Source: Bacteroidota bacterium (GTDB lineage Bacteria; Bacteroidota; Bacteroidia; B-17B0; Aurantibacillaceae). From it: DNA of 64,000 nt. The stretch spans positions 186,001 to 250,000 of the forward strand of contig JAAFIQ010000002.1 in NCBI GenBank assembly GCA_013298715.1, given 5' to 3'. A program made the translations under genes and the position numbers. This document shows positions 44,174 through 48,057 of the stretch, piece after piece. The stretch's first letter is position 1. Each line of letters begins with the position of its first letter. The notes beneath the pieces were generated by a model. That model saw nothing but the letters and a program-made list of their open reading frames with translations. It made no database searches and had not been told where the DNA came from.

Positions 44174-45676
44174 TTAATTCACTTTTCCCATCAACTTTTT
44201 CATAAAGGGTGCAATTATAATTATTGAAACACCAATTATTAAAGAATAGAGTGCTAATTGCTGATAGCCCTGGGCATAAACATTTAGCTTTTCTAAGTTG
44301 GTTGAATGTTCTGATGCCTCAGCAATATTTGCGCCAAGTAATCCTGCAAAGTATTGACCATAAGCGCTGGCTAAAAACCACATACCCATAATTACTGCTT
44401 GCAATTTTTGAGGTGATAATTTTGTCATAACACTCATCCCAATTGGAGATAAGCACAATTCGCCAAAAGTAATAATAAACCAACCAAACGTAAATAAATT
44501 CAACGATGTTTTTCCATCAGGCGATGCAAAAAATTTACAGGTATAAAAAATATAAAAGCCAATTGCTACAAATAAAAATCCTAAACCAAATTTTACAATG
44601 GTGTTTGGTTCTTTCTTTTTCTTGGCCAACCACAACCAAAACAAACCAAGCAAGGATGCAAAAATAATTACGAATAATGAGTTGGCTGAATTATTAACAC
44701 CGTTAGGATCGTTTTCAAATCCAAGTAAGTTATTATCTAAATTATTAGCAGCAAAAAAGCTTAAAGAGCCGCCGCTTTGTTCAAAAAATGCCCAAAAGAA
44801 AATTGAAAATACCATGAATAATAATGCTGCAACTAATTTTTTATTCTCTTCAGGATTGAAACTTTTCATTTCGTATAAAACATACAGTACAGAAGCAGGC
44901 CCAACTATGTACATAAAAATATCAGTGTATTCTGTTTTTGAAACCATCAAAATTATAATCGGAATAATTAAAATTGAGCTCGCGTAAGTAATTACTTCTT
45001 GCATTAATTTTTTTTGTTTTGGTAAATTAAGTAAAGGGCTTAATCCTATTGGTCCAAGTGTATGTTGTGTTCTTGTAAAGGTTAATAAACTAATTACCAT
45101 CACCACAGATGCCAGGCCAAATGCCACGTTCCACTCTAAACCCTGAGGAATCATATCTGCAAACATCACGCGTTTACCAACATTAATACAAAGCAATCCT
45201 CCAAAAAAAGCTCCTAGGTTTACTCCTGCATAAAATAAAGAAAAGCCTGCATCCGACCTATTGTCGCCCTCCTTGTAAAGTTGACCAACAATAGAAGAAA
45301 TATTAGGTTTAAAAAATCCAGTCCCAACAATATTAAATGCAATACCAATAAAGAAAAATTCTTTAGGATTAATCGCTAACACTACGCTACCAACAATCAT
45401 AAGTATTCCGCCCCAAAATAACGATTTGCGTTTGCCTAAAATTTTATCAGCCAATAAACCACCAATAAATGTAAATGCATAAACAAAAGCCTGCGATGCG
45501 CCGTATTGCAAACCTGCTTCTTTTTCATTCATGCCAAGTTGATTTACCATAAAAAATGCCAGCATGCCGCGCATGCCATAGTAGGAAAAACGTTCCCACA
45601 TTTCGCTGAAAAATAAATACCATAATTGTTTTGGGTATTTACCTTTAAAATTTTGTATTTGTTCTAGTGATTGCAT
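44174..45676 (-). CDS. POT family di/tripeptide transporter
   Basis: The product is 500 aa with 12 or more membrane helices. The family signatures are MWERFSYYGMRGMLAFF (residues about 26-42), DKILGKRKSLFWGG, GTGFFKPNISSIVGQLY and SLFYAGVNLGAFFG. It imports di- and tripeptides with protons. A second gene of the same family lies upstream (46339-48057), separated by the GxxExxY gene and a direct-repeat cluster. The pair points to peptide use as a nutrient source. Confidence 0.92.
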   Translation of the reverse strand: MQSLEQIQNFKGKYPKQLWYLFFSEMWERFSYYGMRGMLAFFMVNQLGMNEKEAGLQYGASQAFVYAFTFIGGLLADKILGKRKSLFWGGILMIVGSVVLAINPKEFFFIGIAFNIVGTGFFKPNISSIVGQLYKEGDNRSDAGFSLFYAGVNLGAFFGGLLCINVGKRVMFADMIPQGLEWNVAFGLASVVMVISLLTFTRTQHTLGPIGLSPLLNLPKQKKLMQEVITYASSILIIPIIILMVSKTEYTDIFMYIVGPASVLYVLYEMKSFNPEENKKLVAALLFMVFSIFFWAFFEQSGGSLSFFAANNLDNNLLGFENDPNGVNNSANSLFVIIFASLLGLFWLWLAKKKKEPNTIVKFGLGFLFVAIGFYIFYTCKFFASPDGKTSLNLFTFGWFIITFGELCLSPIGMSVMTKLSPQKLQAVIMGMWFLASAYGQYFAGLLGANIAEASEHSTNLEKLNVYAQGYQQLALYSLIIGVSIIIIAPFMKKLMGKVN

Positions 45677-45690
45677 GTTATTGAACTTTT

Positions 45691-45861
45691 TGAACGCAGA
45701 TGACGCTGATTTTTATGATTTGATTTTGATAGAACGCAGATGATGCTTATTAATATGATTTCGTATGATTTTTAATGTTTTAAATGAACGCAGATGACGC
45801 TGATTAATATGATTTATTAAGATTTTTGTTTGAGCGTAGATTACTAAGATTAATGTGAATT
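45691..45861. repeat. Four degenerate direct repeats of about 30 bp
   Basis: Copies at 45691-45720, 45730-45760, 45785-45814 and 45831-45861 share the pattern GAACGCAGATGACGCTGATT followed by an AT-rich end with ATGATT. The first and third are most alike and the fourth is the most diverged. Spacing between copy starts is 39, 55 and 46 bp, so they are not a CRISPR array. They lie between a POT gene and the GxxExxY gene, whose stop at 45861 touches the last copy. Confidence 0.75.
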
Positions 45862-46259
45862 TATTTTGTTGTTGTTTTATTTGAGAATACTTTACGTTTT
45901 ATTTCTGGTTTTTTGCCAAAGTTTAAAAGCAAACCAACTTCTATGTCTGTTGCTTTTAGGTAATTTATCAATTGGTATTCGTGTTCTTCGCATAAGGTTT
46001 CGCTTGCTTTTAATTCGATAATAACTAAATCTTCAACAACCAAATCTGCAAAATAATTTCCTACTTCTCTTTCTTCATAAAATACTTTTATTGGCTTTTG
46101 TTTTTCAGTCTTTAAGTTTAATGCTGTTAATTCAATATATAGAGCATTTTCATAAACTTTTTCTAAAAAACCATAACCAAGAGTATTATAAACTTTATAA
46201 AATGCGCCAATAATTTTGTCAGTAATTTCCGAATGTTTATAGTTTTCTAAATCTAACAT
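45861..46259 (-). CDS. GxxExxY family protein
   Basis: The product is 132 aa with the family motif GYGFLEKVYENAL (residues about 28-40). The PD-(D/E)XK nuclease-like core is suggested by GNYFADLVVEDLVIIELKAS (about 77-96). The family is widespread in Bacteroidota, often beside short DNA repeats, and its function is not established. The fold resembles nucleases of mobile elements. It lies between two POT transporter genes on the same strand and does not seem linked to them. Confidence 0.82.
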   Translation of the reverse strand: MLDLENYKHSEITDKIIGAFYKVYNTLGYGFLEKVYENALYIELTALNLKTEKQKPIKVFYEEREVGNYFADLVVEDLVIIELKASETLCEEHEYQLINYLKATDIEVGLLLNFGKKPEIKRKVFSNKTTTK

Positions 46260-46338
46260 TATTCATTAAAGAAATCATAAAGTATCTTAACAATGTGGGT
46301 TATCAGCGTGCTTGAATTTCTATAGTTCAGCTTGCATT

Positions 46339-48057
46339 TTATTTAACACCATGCATTAATTTTTTGAGAACTGGAGAAAGTAAAAATAGTATAGCAGAAG
46401 CAATACCACAAAATATTACAAACACCATAAAAAATTCATATAAATTATGAATTTCAAATCCAATAAATGTAGGGTTGACAGAACTAATTTTATTATCATC
46501 CAACAATTTTAATTGATCAGCTGTTAATGTAATAGATTTATTTAATACCGCTTGTAAATCAATACCTAATTCTTTTGCTTTGTTAAATTTATCTCCTGTT
46601 GCAGGCAGAATAGCTCCAAGTGATCCTGCTAGCGCATAACCTGCTGCATTTGATAAAAAAAATACTCCATAAAGCAAAGACGCAAATCGTTTTGGAGATA
46701 ATTTTCCAACGAGTGATAAACCAATAGGAGATAAGCATAACTCACCACACGTTTGAATAAGATATAGAAGAATTAGCCACCAAATGCCAAGTAAACCATT
46801 ATTTCCTAAATCTTTTACATTATGTGCAATAATAAAATAACTAATTGCAATTAATGCTAAACCGTAAGCTTGTTTTACAGGAGATATTGGTTCGCGACCT
46901 TTGTTATTTAATTTGCCCCAAAACCAGCTAAATGGAAAGGCTAGCATTACAACAAAAAGTCCGTTAAAAATTTGCACCATTGAAGCTGGCATTTGCCAAC
47001 CAAACAAAAATGTTCTATCTGTTTGATTATCGGCTATAAAAGTTAATGATGAGCCAGCCTGCTCAAATGCTGCCCAAAAGAAAATTACAAAAAACGAAAC
47101 AATATAAATAACATAAATTCTATGACGTTCAATTTTAGTTAAAGTAGTATCTGAAATAATAAGGCCAGCAAGTGTTATCCCACTTGAGTAAATTATTGGA
47201 TAAATTATAGTCTTTACGAAATTTTTTCCATCCAACATGTATCTGAAAACGAAAAATAAAACAATAAATGAAAAAGCTGCAATAATTAAAGACTTGGTTG
47301 AAAATTTAGCTTCGTTCGCTTCTTCGCCTTCCTTTGATATTTCTTTAATTTTAGATGGTTTGGCGCCTAAAGGCTCGCCTGAAGGAGTTACAACATATTT
47401 ATTTTTCAATAAAAGGAAAATCACAGTACCTAAAATCATGGCAATTGATGCTGCTAAAAAGCCCCATTTAAATGCGTGTACATCTCTAACCATAGTTAAA
47501 ACCCCATCTGCACCGATTACTTCATTTTTAACATCTCCAATTAATGGGCAAAGCCATTGGCTAAATAATGCTCCTAGATTAATTCCCATATAAAAAATTG
47601 TAAAAGCAGAATCTAACTTACTTTTTTCTTCTTTTGGATATAAGCTACCCACCATACTTGAAATGTTGGGTTTAAAAAATCCGTTGCCAAAAATTATTAT
47701 AACTAAAGCTGTCCAAGTTAATGCCGTCGCAGAACTTAAACTTGATGAAAATATGGAAGCACTGATAAATAATAACAATTGTCCAATAGCCATCATAGTA
47801 CCCCCTAACATTATACAATTCCTATTTCCTAAAAACTTGTCAGAAATAAAACCTCCTAACATAGGTGTTAAGTAGCACAACCCTAGGAAGCCACCATATA
47901 TCAATGAAACATCAGCTTCTTTCATTAATAAAGAATTGGTTAGGAATAAGGTTAATATGGCTCGCATGCCATAGAAATTAAATCTTTCCCACATTTCAGT
48001 CCCAAATAATACCCAAAGCCCCTTTGGATGCCCTTTTTGTGTTTGTGTTTGTTCCAT
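46339..48057 (-). CDS. POT family peptide transporter
   Basis: The product is 572 aa with 12-14 membrane helices. The signatures are MWERFNFYGMRAILTLF, GNGFFKPNISSMVGSLY and TIFYMGINLGALFSQW. It is longer than the 500-aa paralogue by extra loops around residues 170-265 and a C-terminal loop of about 45 residues. It is expected to import di- and tripeptides by proton symport. It is probably an old duplicate of the paralogue, as identity by eye is limited to motifs. Confidence 0.9.
   Translation of the reverse strand: MEQTQTQKGHPKGLWVLFGTEMWERFNFYGMRAILTLFLTNSLLMKEADVSLIYGGFLGLCYLTPMLGGFISDKFLGNRNCIMLGGTMMAIGQLLLFISASIFSSSLSSATALTWTALVIIIFGNGFFKPNISSMVGSLYPKEEKSKLDSAFTIFYMGINLGALFSQWLCPLIGDVKNEVIGADGVLTMVRDVHAFKWGFLAASIAMILGTVIFLLLKNKYVVTPSGEPLGAKPSKIKEISKEGEEANEAKFSTKSLIIAAFSFIVLFFVFRYMLDGKNFVKTIIYPIIYSSGITLAGLIISDTTLTKIERHRIYVIYIVSFFVIFFWAAFEQAGSSLTFIADNQTDRTFLFGWQMPASMVQIFNGLFVVMLAFPFSWFWGKLNNKGREPISPVKQAYGLALIAISYFIIAHNVKDLGNNGLLGIWWLILLYLIQTCGELCLSPIGLSLVGKLSPKRFASLLYGVFFLSNAAGYALAGSLGAILPATGDKFNKAKELGIDLQAVLNKSITLTADQLKLLDDNKISSVNPTFIGFEIHNLYEFFMVFVIFCGIASAILFLLSPVLKKLMHGVK

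Follow-up and report, generated by a model that had tools for sequence, protein, structure and literature searches.

What do short direct repeats do beside a gene of the GxxExxY family? The question is raised by a locus in a 64-kb stretch (hereafter the window; G000:C12:186001-250000) of the 4.01-Mb genome of a Bacteroidota bacterium, in which a GxxExxY gene lies between two genes for oligopeptide:H+ symporters, here called T1 (downstream) and T2 (upstream), all three on the minus strand. An earlier note, made from the letters of the window, had described degenerate direct repeats next to this gene and had supposed that the protein may bind, cut or spread them. Our analysis suggests that gene and repeats belong to one element, in which a predicted nuclease is enclosed by inverted arrays of a repeat unit that goes with its protein subfamily, and that this layout is found in many phyla.

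The repeats of the window

The gene matched the GxxExxY profile TIGR04256 with 140 bits (cut-off 35) and the Pfam family PDDEXK_3 (PF13366) with 145 bits (cut-off 22), and it is a member of both families. The gap behind the gene is filled by four direct copies of a repeat of ~50 nt (Table 1). With at most one mismatch allowed, ACGCWGATNACGC occurred four times in the 64 kb, versus 0.16 expected, and a number of four was reached in none of 100 shuffles; because the matches lie so far above expectation, a chance origin of the window repeats is excluded. Three of the four matches are downstream copies; the remaining one is inverted and located upstream of the gene, at 46297-46309(-). There it forms part of a decayed upstream arm, whose degree of match to the downstream arm was equalled by 21 of 5000 shuffles and at 6 of 2526 other positions in the window.

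The degenerate repeats of the earlier note are thereby real, on the evidence of the four copies, the two profile matches and the shuffles. They do form direct copies, as had been claimed; what had been missed is that these copies constitute one side of an inverted pair and that the repeat unit is two-part, with CGCAGATGA-type 9-mers first and TATGATT-type units second. The second GxxExxY gene of the same genome has several tandem arm copies of ~60 bp behind it (L021:4540-4870). These copies represent that gene's own arm, of the CTTTGCGAGCTCTGCG type, and were parsed as a short spurious open reading frame. In the remainder of the 64-kb window no tRNA was found, and the tandem repeats there are short and unrelated.

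Table 1. Features of the GxxExxY locus and its host site (positions in the window)
Feature	Position	Strand	Basis and remarks
GxxExxY gene, 132 aa, predicted PD-(D/E)XK nuclease	45861..46259	-	TIGR04256, PF13366, AlphaFold2, invariant residues
Downstream arm, copy 1 (outermost)	45692..45731	+	~50-nt repeat 45684-45733; pattern search
Downstream arm, copy 2	45732..45771	+	~50-nt repeat 45724-45773; pattern search
Downstream arm, copy 3	45786..45825	+	~50-nt repeat 45778-45827; pattern search
Downstream arm, copy 4, degenerate	45832..45871	+	~50-nt repeat 45824-45873; runs 13 nt into the 3' end of the gene
Upstream arm, decayed and in inverted orientation to the downstream arm	46272..46309	-	26/38 positions match; core by pattern search; intact counterpart in G005
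T1, oligopeptide:H+ symporter gene downstream (part of the host site only)	44174..45676	-	TIGR00924, 334 bits
T2, oligopeptide:H+ symporter gene upstream (part of the host site only)	46339..48057	-	TIGR00924, 278 bits

Inverted flanks at GxxExxY genes across phyla

GxxExxY genes were recovered in 68 of 87 genomes of the bacterial family to which the window genome belongs, with up to nine copies per genome among the matches listed. Forty further loci that were read showed arms like AACCACTAAGACACTCAG // CTTAGTGCCTTAGTGGTTAA or GAACCATATAAGGCATGTAAG // CTTATATGGTTC, and paralogs within one genome differed in their arms. A scan of one genome per species yielded 80 loci from many phyla with this same layout (e.g. 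L094, L105, L143, L154 and L158).

To score the flanks, the 300 nt that follow a gene were reverse-complemented and aligned with the 300 nt that precede it. Within the family the 42 loci had a median score of 19, versus 11 for 503 control genes, and 23 of them scored at or above the 99th percentile of the controls. Across phyla the median was 23 for 71 loci (9 of the 80 were dropped for lack of 300-nt flanks) versus 10 for the controls, and 33 of the 71 reached the control 99th percentile, a level that was attained by only 3.9% (family) and 1.5% (phyla) of the flanks when these were paired from different loci. Using flanks of 150 nt, which 5 of the 80 phylum-wide loci lacked, a score of at least 15 was obtained for 26/42 family loci and 57/75 phylum-wide loci, versus 2.4% and 2.7% of the control genes, respectively.

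The arms consist of arrays of units of 9-10 nt, with a periodicity at 9 and 10 nt (z of 12 and 8, respectively) and a weaker echo at 19. The arrays can run far beyond the gene, and the downstream arm is retained as well as the upstream one. At L097, L099, L147 and L157, gene-less hairpins with matching arms directly adjoin gene-bearing elements. One in-frame stop was observed in several of the GxxExxY genes (L026, L030, L069, L089 and others); decay of the gene between recognizable arms is therefore not rare.

The repeat unit follows the protein subfamily

Between genomes, protein identity correlated with arm similarity (r=0.47, reached in 0 of 2000 permutations) for the 87 of 122 loci that had an arm score of at least 17, the other 35 having short flanks or a lower score, and with the window being represented in this test by an AT-rich chance match instead of its true arms. 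When the comparison was restricted to pairs from different phyla, r was 0.32 (0 of 5000 permutations; 56 loci, phylum labels taken from the record titles and loci without such a label omitted). Because the genomes are related, the significance of these protein-repeat statistics, and of the copy-number comparison that follows, is optimistic.

The number of repeats per genome points in the same direction. The window unit AACGCWGATGACGCWGAT was counted with one mismatch in the 87 genomes, the reversed control pattern giving 0 copies in all of them. Among the matches listed, the 17 genomes with a GxxExxY protein at least 58% identical to that of the window had a median of 9 copies, and all 11 genomes with one at least 74% identical held 6-25 copies. 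On the same basis, the 51 genomes with other GxxExxY proteins only had a median of 0 copies, with at least 6 in 5 of them, and the 19 genomes without any GxxExxY had a mean of 0.3 copies, with at least 6 in none. The dispersed copies are mostly intergenic and occur singly or as gene-less inverted pairs.

The statement in the earlier note that such repeats recur near this family in the Bacteroidota is right, and the recurrence extends far past that phylum. Two observations by which the note could have been overturned, namely that most GxxExxY loci lack repeats and that repeats are equally common away from the gene, both fail to hold: the 150-nt scores given above speak against the former, and copies elsewhere do exist, in numbers that track the matching protein subfamily. 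The match between subfamily and unit and the link to copy number favour the supposed binding, cutting or spreading of the repeats by the protein; recognition, cutting and spreading as such are steps that we infer.

A predicted nuclease core

The AlphaFold2 model of the window protein is of high confidence and has a PD-(D/E)XK core (predicted local distance difference test 92.9, predicted template modelling score 0.86). Five residues (E32, D71, E81, K83 and Q95, in the numbering of that comparison) are invariant in 71 sequences, meaning that the catalytic D and ExK are kept. The best fold match is SSO0001 (4ic1; Foldseek E 3.2e-4; VIA Z 10.0 with 103 residues aligned), a Cas4 protein. The likeness to Cas4/RecB-type nucleases thus comprises the fold and the conserved D, ExK and Q..Y residues, Q-x3-Y being a RecB/Cas4 motif. 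Further fold matches included restriction-like folds, lambda exonuclease and Hjc. A reading as a Holliday-junction resolvase was set aside, as the Hjc matches (Z 5.9-6.8) were no better than those of other PD-(D/E)XK enzymes. Solved structures searched by sequence yielded no significant match, and PADLOC returned weak Cas4 matches only (E 0.0017 at best).

Cas4 proteins carry a four-cysteine Fe-S cluster. The window protein differs in being a stand-alone protein of ~130 aa with one cysteine in its 132 residues, and a cluster of this type is excluded because of that single cysteine. In addition, no cas gene was present among the neighbours examined around the GxxExxY gene. The protein is predicted to be a minimal Cas4/RecB-like PD-(D/E)XK nuclease, modelled as a bare nuclease core without an added DNA-binding domain; as far as the model goes, the fold indicates a nuclease and leaves the substrate unspecified.

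The layout recurs in an unrelated family

TIGR02436, the four-helix-bundle family of the intervening sequences (IVSs) of 23S rRNA, was found in 75 of the 87 genomes, among the matches listed. In the window genome the family-wide search gave no TIGR02436 among the matches listed, and a search of that genome alone was silent, as were 14 controls. Of 30 TIGR02436 loci, 27 could be parsed (3 had no parsed frame), and 14 of the 27 scored at least 17 with 150-nt flanks, versus 1.9% of the controls. The TIGR02436 genes (L173-L202) lie in intercistronic gaps, and their inverted arms are made of simple units of their own, such as AATAGGTATTAGGAATTAG, and arm composition told GxxExxY from TIGR02436 in 44 of 45 cases. 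TIGR02436 is unrelated to GxxExxY; its elements share the layout and differ in the units. One and the same gap, between genes read by eye as thiG and thiH, holds a GxxExxY element in L085 and L066 and a TIGR02436 element in L183.

The host site in related genomes

The gap between T2 and T1 was read in 30 genomes of the bacterial family, 4 of which gave rows that were unclassifiable. A GxxExxY gene with arms of the window type was present in 5 of the 30. In the relative G005 the element is likewise flanked by the two transporter genes; it has a clean arm at either side and extends from the stop codon of T2 up to the start codon of T1. By their coordinates, three more gene-bearing T2-T1 sites occur among the matches listed (G064, G017 and G040, the first of which is also among the unclassified rows). 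Gene-less remnants of the window type were found in 2 of the 30 (G027 and G028) and gene-less hairpins of another unit type in 3 (G053, G057 and G058). Judged by eye, the latter hairpins (L213, L214 and L219) resemble units of the TIGR02436 type. Another 16 of the 30 had a short gap that lacked an element and frequently contained an ordinary terminator-like hairpin. Among the matches listed, the genomes nearest to that of the window by T1 protein, G020 (92%), G021 (89%) and G018 (85%), lack the element.

A proposed pair of nuclease and cognate repeat

The subfamily-specific units and the occurrence of the same layout across many phyla suggest that the nuclease acts on its flanking repeats. The best explanation, for which the chances seem to us evenly balanced, is that gene and flanks together make up one element, a nuclease plus its cognate repeat, that works like a pair of a repetitive extragenic palindrome (REP) and its associated tyrosine transposase (RAYT), with an unrelated enzyme. 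It draws on the layout, the subfamily-specific units and the link to copy number, all three read from sequence, and on the apparent DNA-type nature of the arms (see below) and the predicted nuclease fold. The protein would recognize the unit that belongs to it, probably in a cruciform or in a single-stranded hairpin made by the inverted arms, and would cleave at the recognized repeat. The ensuing repair or copying would then keep the arms alike and might occasionally put new arms or hairpins into other intergenic gaps.

In the passages of PMC3733652 that deal with them, REP/RAYT systems (REPtrons, TIRtrons) comprise a nuclease-like gene that has a short repeat in inverted copies on its two sides, with different genes having different repeats. 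The same passages describe dispersed gene-less single and paired copies and a whole unit that is mostly not self-propagating, and these features are shared as well. RAYTs are described there as HUH tyrosine transposases, often with GTAG-tagged palindromes, whereas the GxxExxY element has a PD-(D/E)XK fold and arms made of arrays of 9-10-nt units. Because an HUH transposase is lacking and the protein is PDDEXK_3 by profile and fold, the element is not a REPtron; neither is it a 23S IVS or a Cas4. With miniature inverted-repeat transposable elements, taken as a general kind, it shares gene-less hairpins that carry the same arms; it differs in that neither target duplications nor a parent transposase of a known family came to light. 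No description of a GxxExxY cognate-repeat element was found in the open-access literature, an absence that is not proof, and six repeat strings gave no match there. A passage on GxxExxY in PMC8934634 concerns a gene beside a reverse transcriptase.

Several findings weigh against the proposed nuclease-repeat pair. Inverted arms were undetectable at some GxxExxY loci. Among the matches listed, G047 has 32 copies of the window type and no close relative of the window protein, and G034, G057 and G072 have 0-2 copies despite a relative that is 60-72% identical. Gene and arms share their ancestry, which accounts for part of the link between subfamily and unit. Within a locus the arms matched barely better than across orthologs (37 pairs, 21 up and 14 down, p 0.036, 7 of 11 sites); co-evolution of the arms per locus, as tested at orthologous sites, is weak, and the unit itself is conserved between orthologs. 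Neighbouring genes were co-directional in 36/40, 47/58 and (for TIGR02436) 27/27 classified loci, versus 505/840 control genes, a preference that is unaccounted for by a symmetric DNA element and that a need for host transcription would explain.

The inheritance of the elements is a further such point. The site comparison covered 62 distinct loci (1 of 29 extra loci was unparsed and 8 duplicates were removed). Because 33 of the 62 occupy 11 sites that have homologous genes on both sides in another genome, and because 25 of these 33 find their best GxxExxY match from another genome at that very site, the elements are mainly vertically inherited, with loss. They are mostly passed on at fixed intercistronic sites and are lost there or reduced to gene-less hairpins. 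Neither target duplication nor clean insertion or movement was seen in the T2-T1 gaps and at two solo-repeat sites; for these two solo repeats of the window genome empty sites were undefinable, as the alignments ended at the gap or the two sides were on different contigs.

Alternative explanations

The gene and its arms could constitute an IVS-like RNA element: the arms would pair once the host operon is transcribed, RNase III would excise the stem together with the gene that its loop contains, and the protein would either be a passenger or help the RNA to spread. As told in passages of PMC4990558, tandem heptamers precede the S23p gene in the Coxiella IVS, and RNase III cuts this IVS. The same passages show what 23S IVSs with S23p/IVP (TIGR02436, PF05635) share with the elements studied here: a small open reading frame inside the loop that the inverted ends delimit, short tandem units ahead of it and a sporadic presence. 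The co-directional neighbours and the occurrence of TIGR02436 with the same layout in the same genomes, there between protein-coding genes, speak for this explanation too. The window element, however, is located between two transporter genes and not in a 23S rRNA gene, and its TIGR04256 protein is unrelated to S23p. Moreover, arms that are kept as a transcript stem should have more G.U than A.C mismatches, and GxxExxY elements show no such sign of RNA-level pairing (G.U 193 versus A.C 178 at 102 loci in gapped alignments; 123 versus 118 at 103 loci without gaps). Because G.U mismatches show no excess over A.C, the data favour arms that are inverted repeats at the DNA level rather than RNA stems, and the reading of the complementary arms as RNA hairpins was not supported. 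Given also that dispersed solo arms exist, and that a tRNA was the sole RNA family matched by Rfam at 8 loci, we consider an IVS-like RNA element unlikely.

Two other explanations are, to about the same extent, rather improbable. The protein might bind the 9-10-nt units as operators in order to regulate its own gene, with the dispersed copies as further regulatory sites, in line with a unit spacing near one helical turn and with units that are specific for the subfamily. Such autoregulation is at odds with a downstream arm that is kept like the upstream one, with arrays that can reach far past the gene, with the invariance of the catalytic residues and with a predicted fold that consists of the nuclease core and has no additional DNA-binding domain. 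Alternatively, the association might be passive, the arrays being ordinary terminator or mRNA-stability repeats or lying in gaps that tolerate insertions, and the nuclease having another job. The location of the elements in intercistronic gaps and the terminator-like hairpins that often occupy empty T2-T1 sites fit this, but neither a unit that follows the protein subfamily across phyla nor a copy number that follows the matching subfamily is predicted by it. Finally, a conventional transposon that moves as a whole would fit a gene between inverted ends and the up to nine copies per genome, but is very improbable considering the different arms of paralogs in one genome, the mainly vertical inheritance, the lack of a target duplication at the sites examined and the occurrence of GxxExxY in 8 of 72,556 plasmid records, 0 of 50,697 phage records and at 2 loci in a scan of viral contigs.

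Implications for the GxxExxY family

The nuclease-plus-cognate-repeat element could be part of something wider, in which GxxExxY is the Cas4/RecB-like nuclease of pan-bacterial, RAYT-independent repeat systems and recognizes, maintains and disperses hairpins made of its own subfamily-specific 9-10-nt units, TIGR02436 is a second, unrelated occupant of the same kind of element, and the rRNA IVSs are one particular form of an intercistronic element that is widespread. This extension is tentative, and we think it somewhat more probably wrong than right.

The proposed pairing gives a very common bacterial family, to which no function has been assigned, a substrate that can be tested, namely the repeat at its own flanks. 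Numerous dispersed intergenic repeats of the CGCAGAT, CACGAAG, CACGGAT and ACAGGATT types, found in a dozen groups at the level of phylum or class, would share one explanation. The subfamily-specific pairing provides natural sets of matched and mismatched enzymes and repeats, and the question of specificity can therefore be answered by ordinary binding and cleavage assays.
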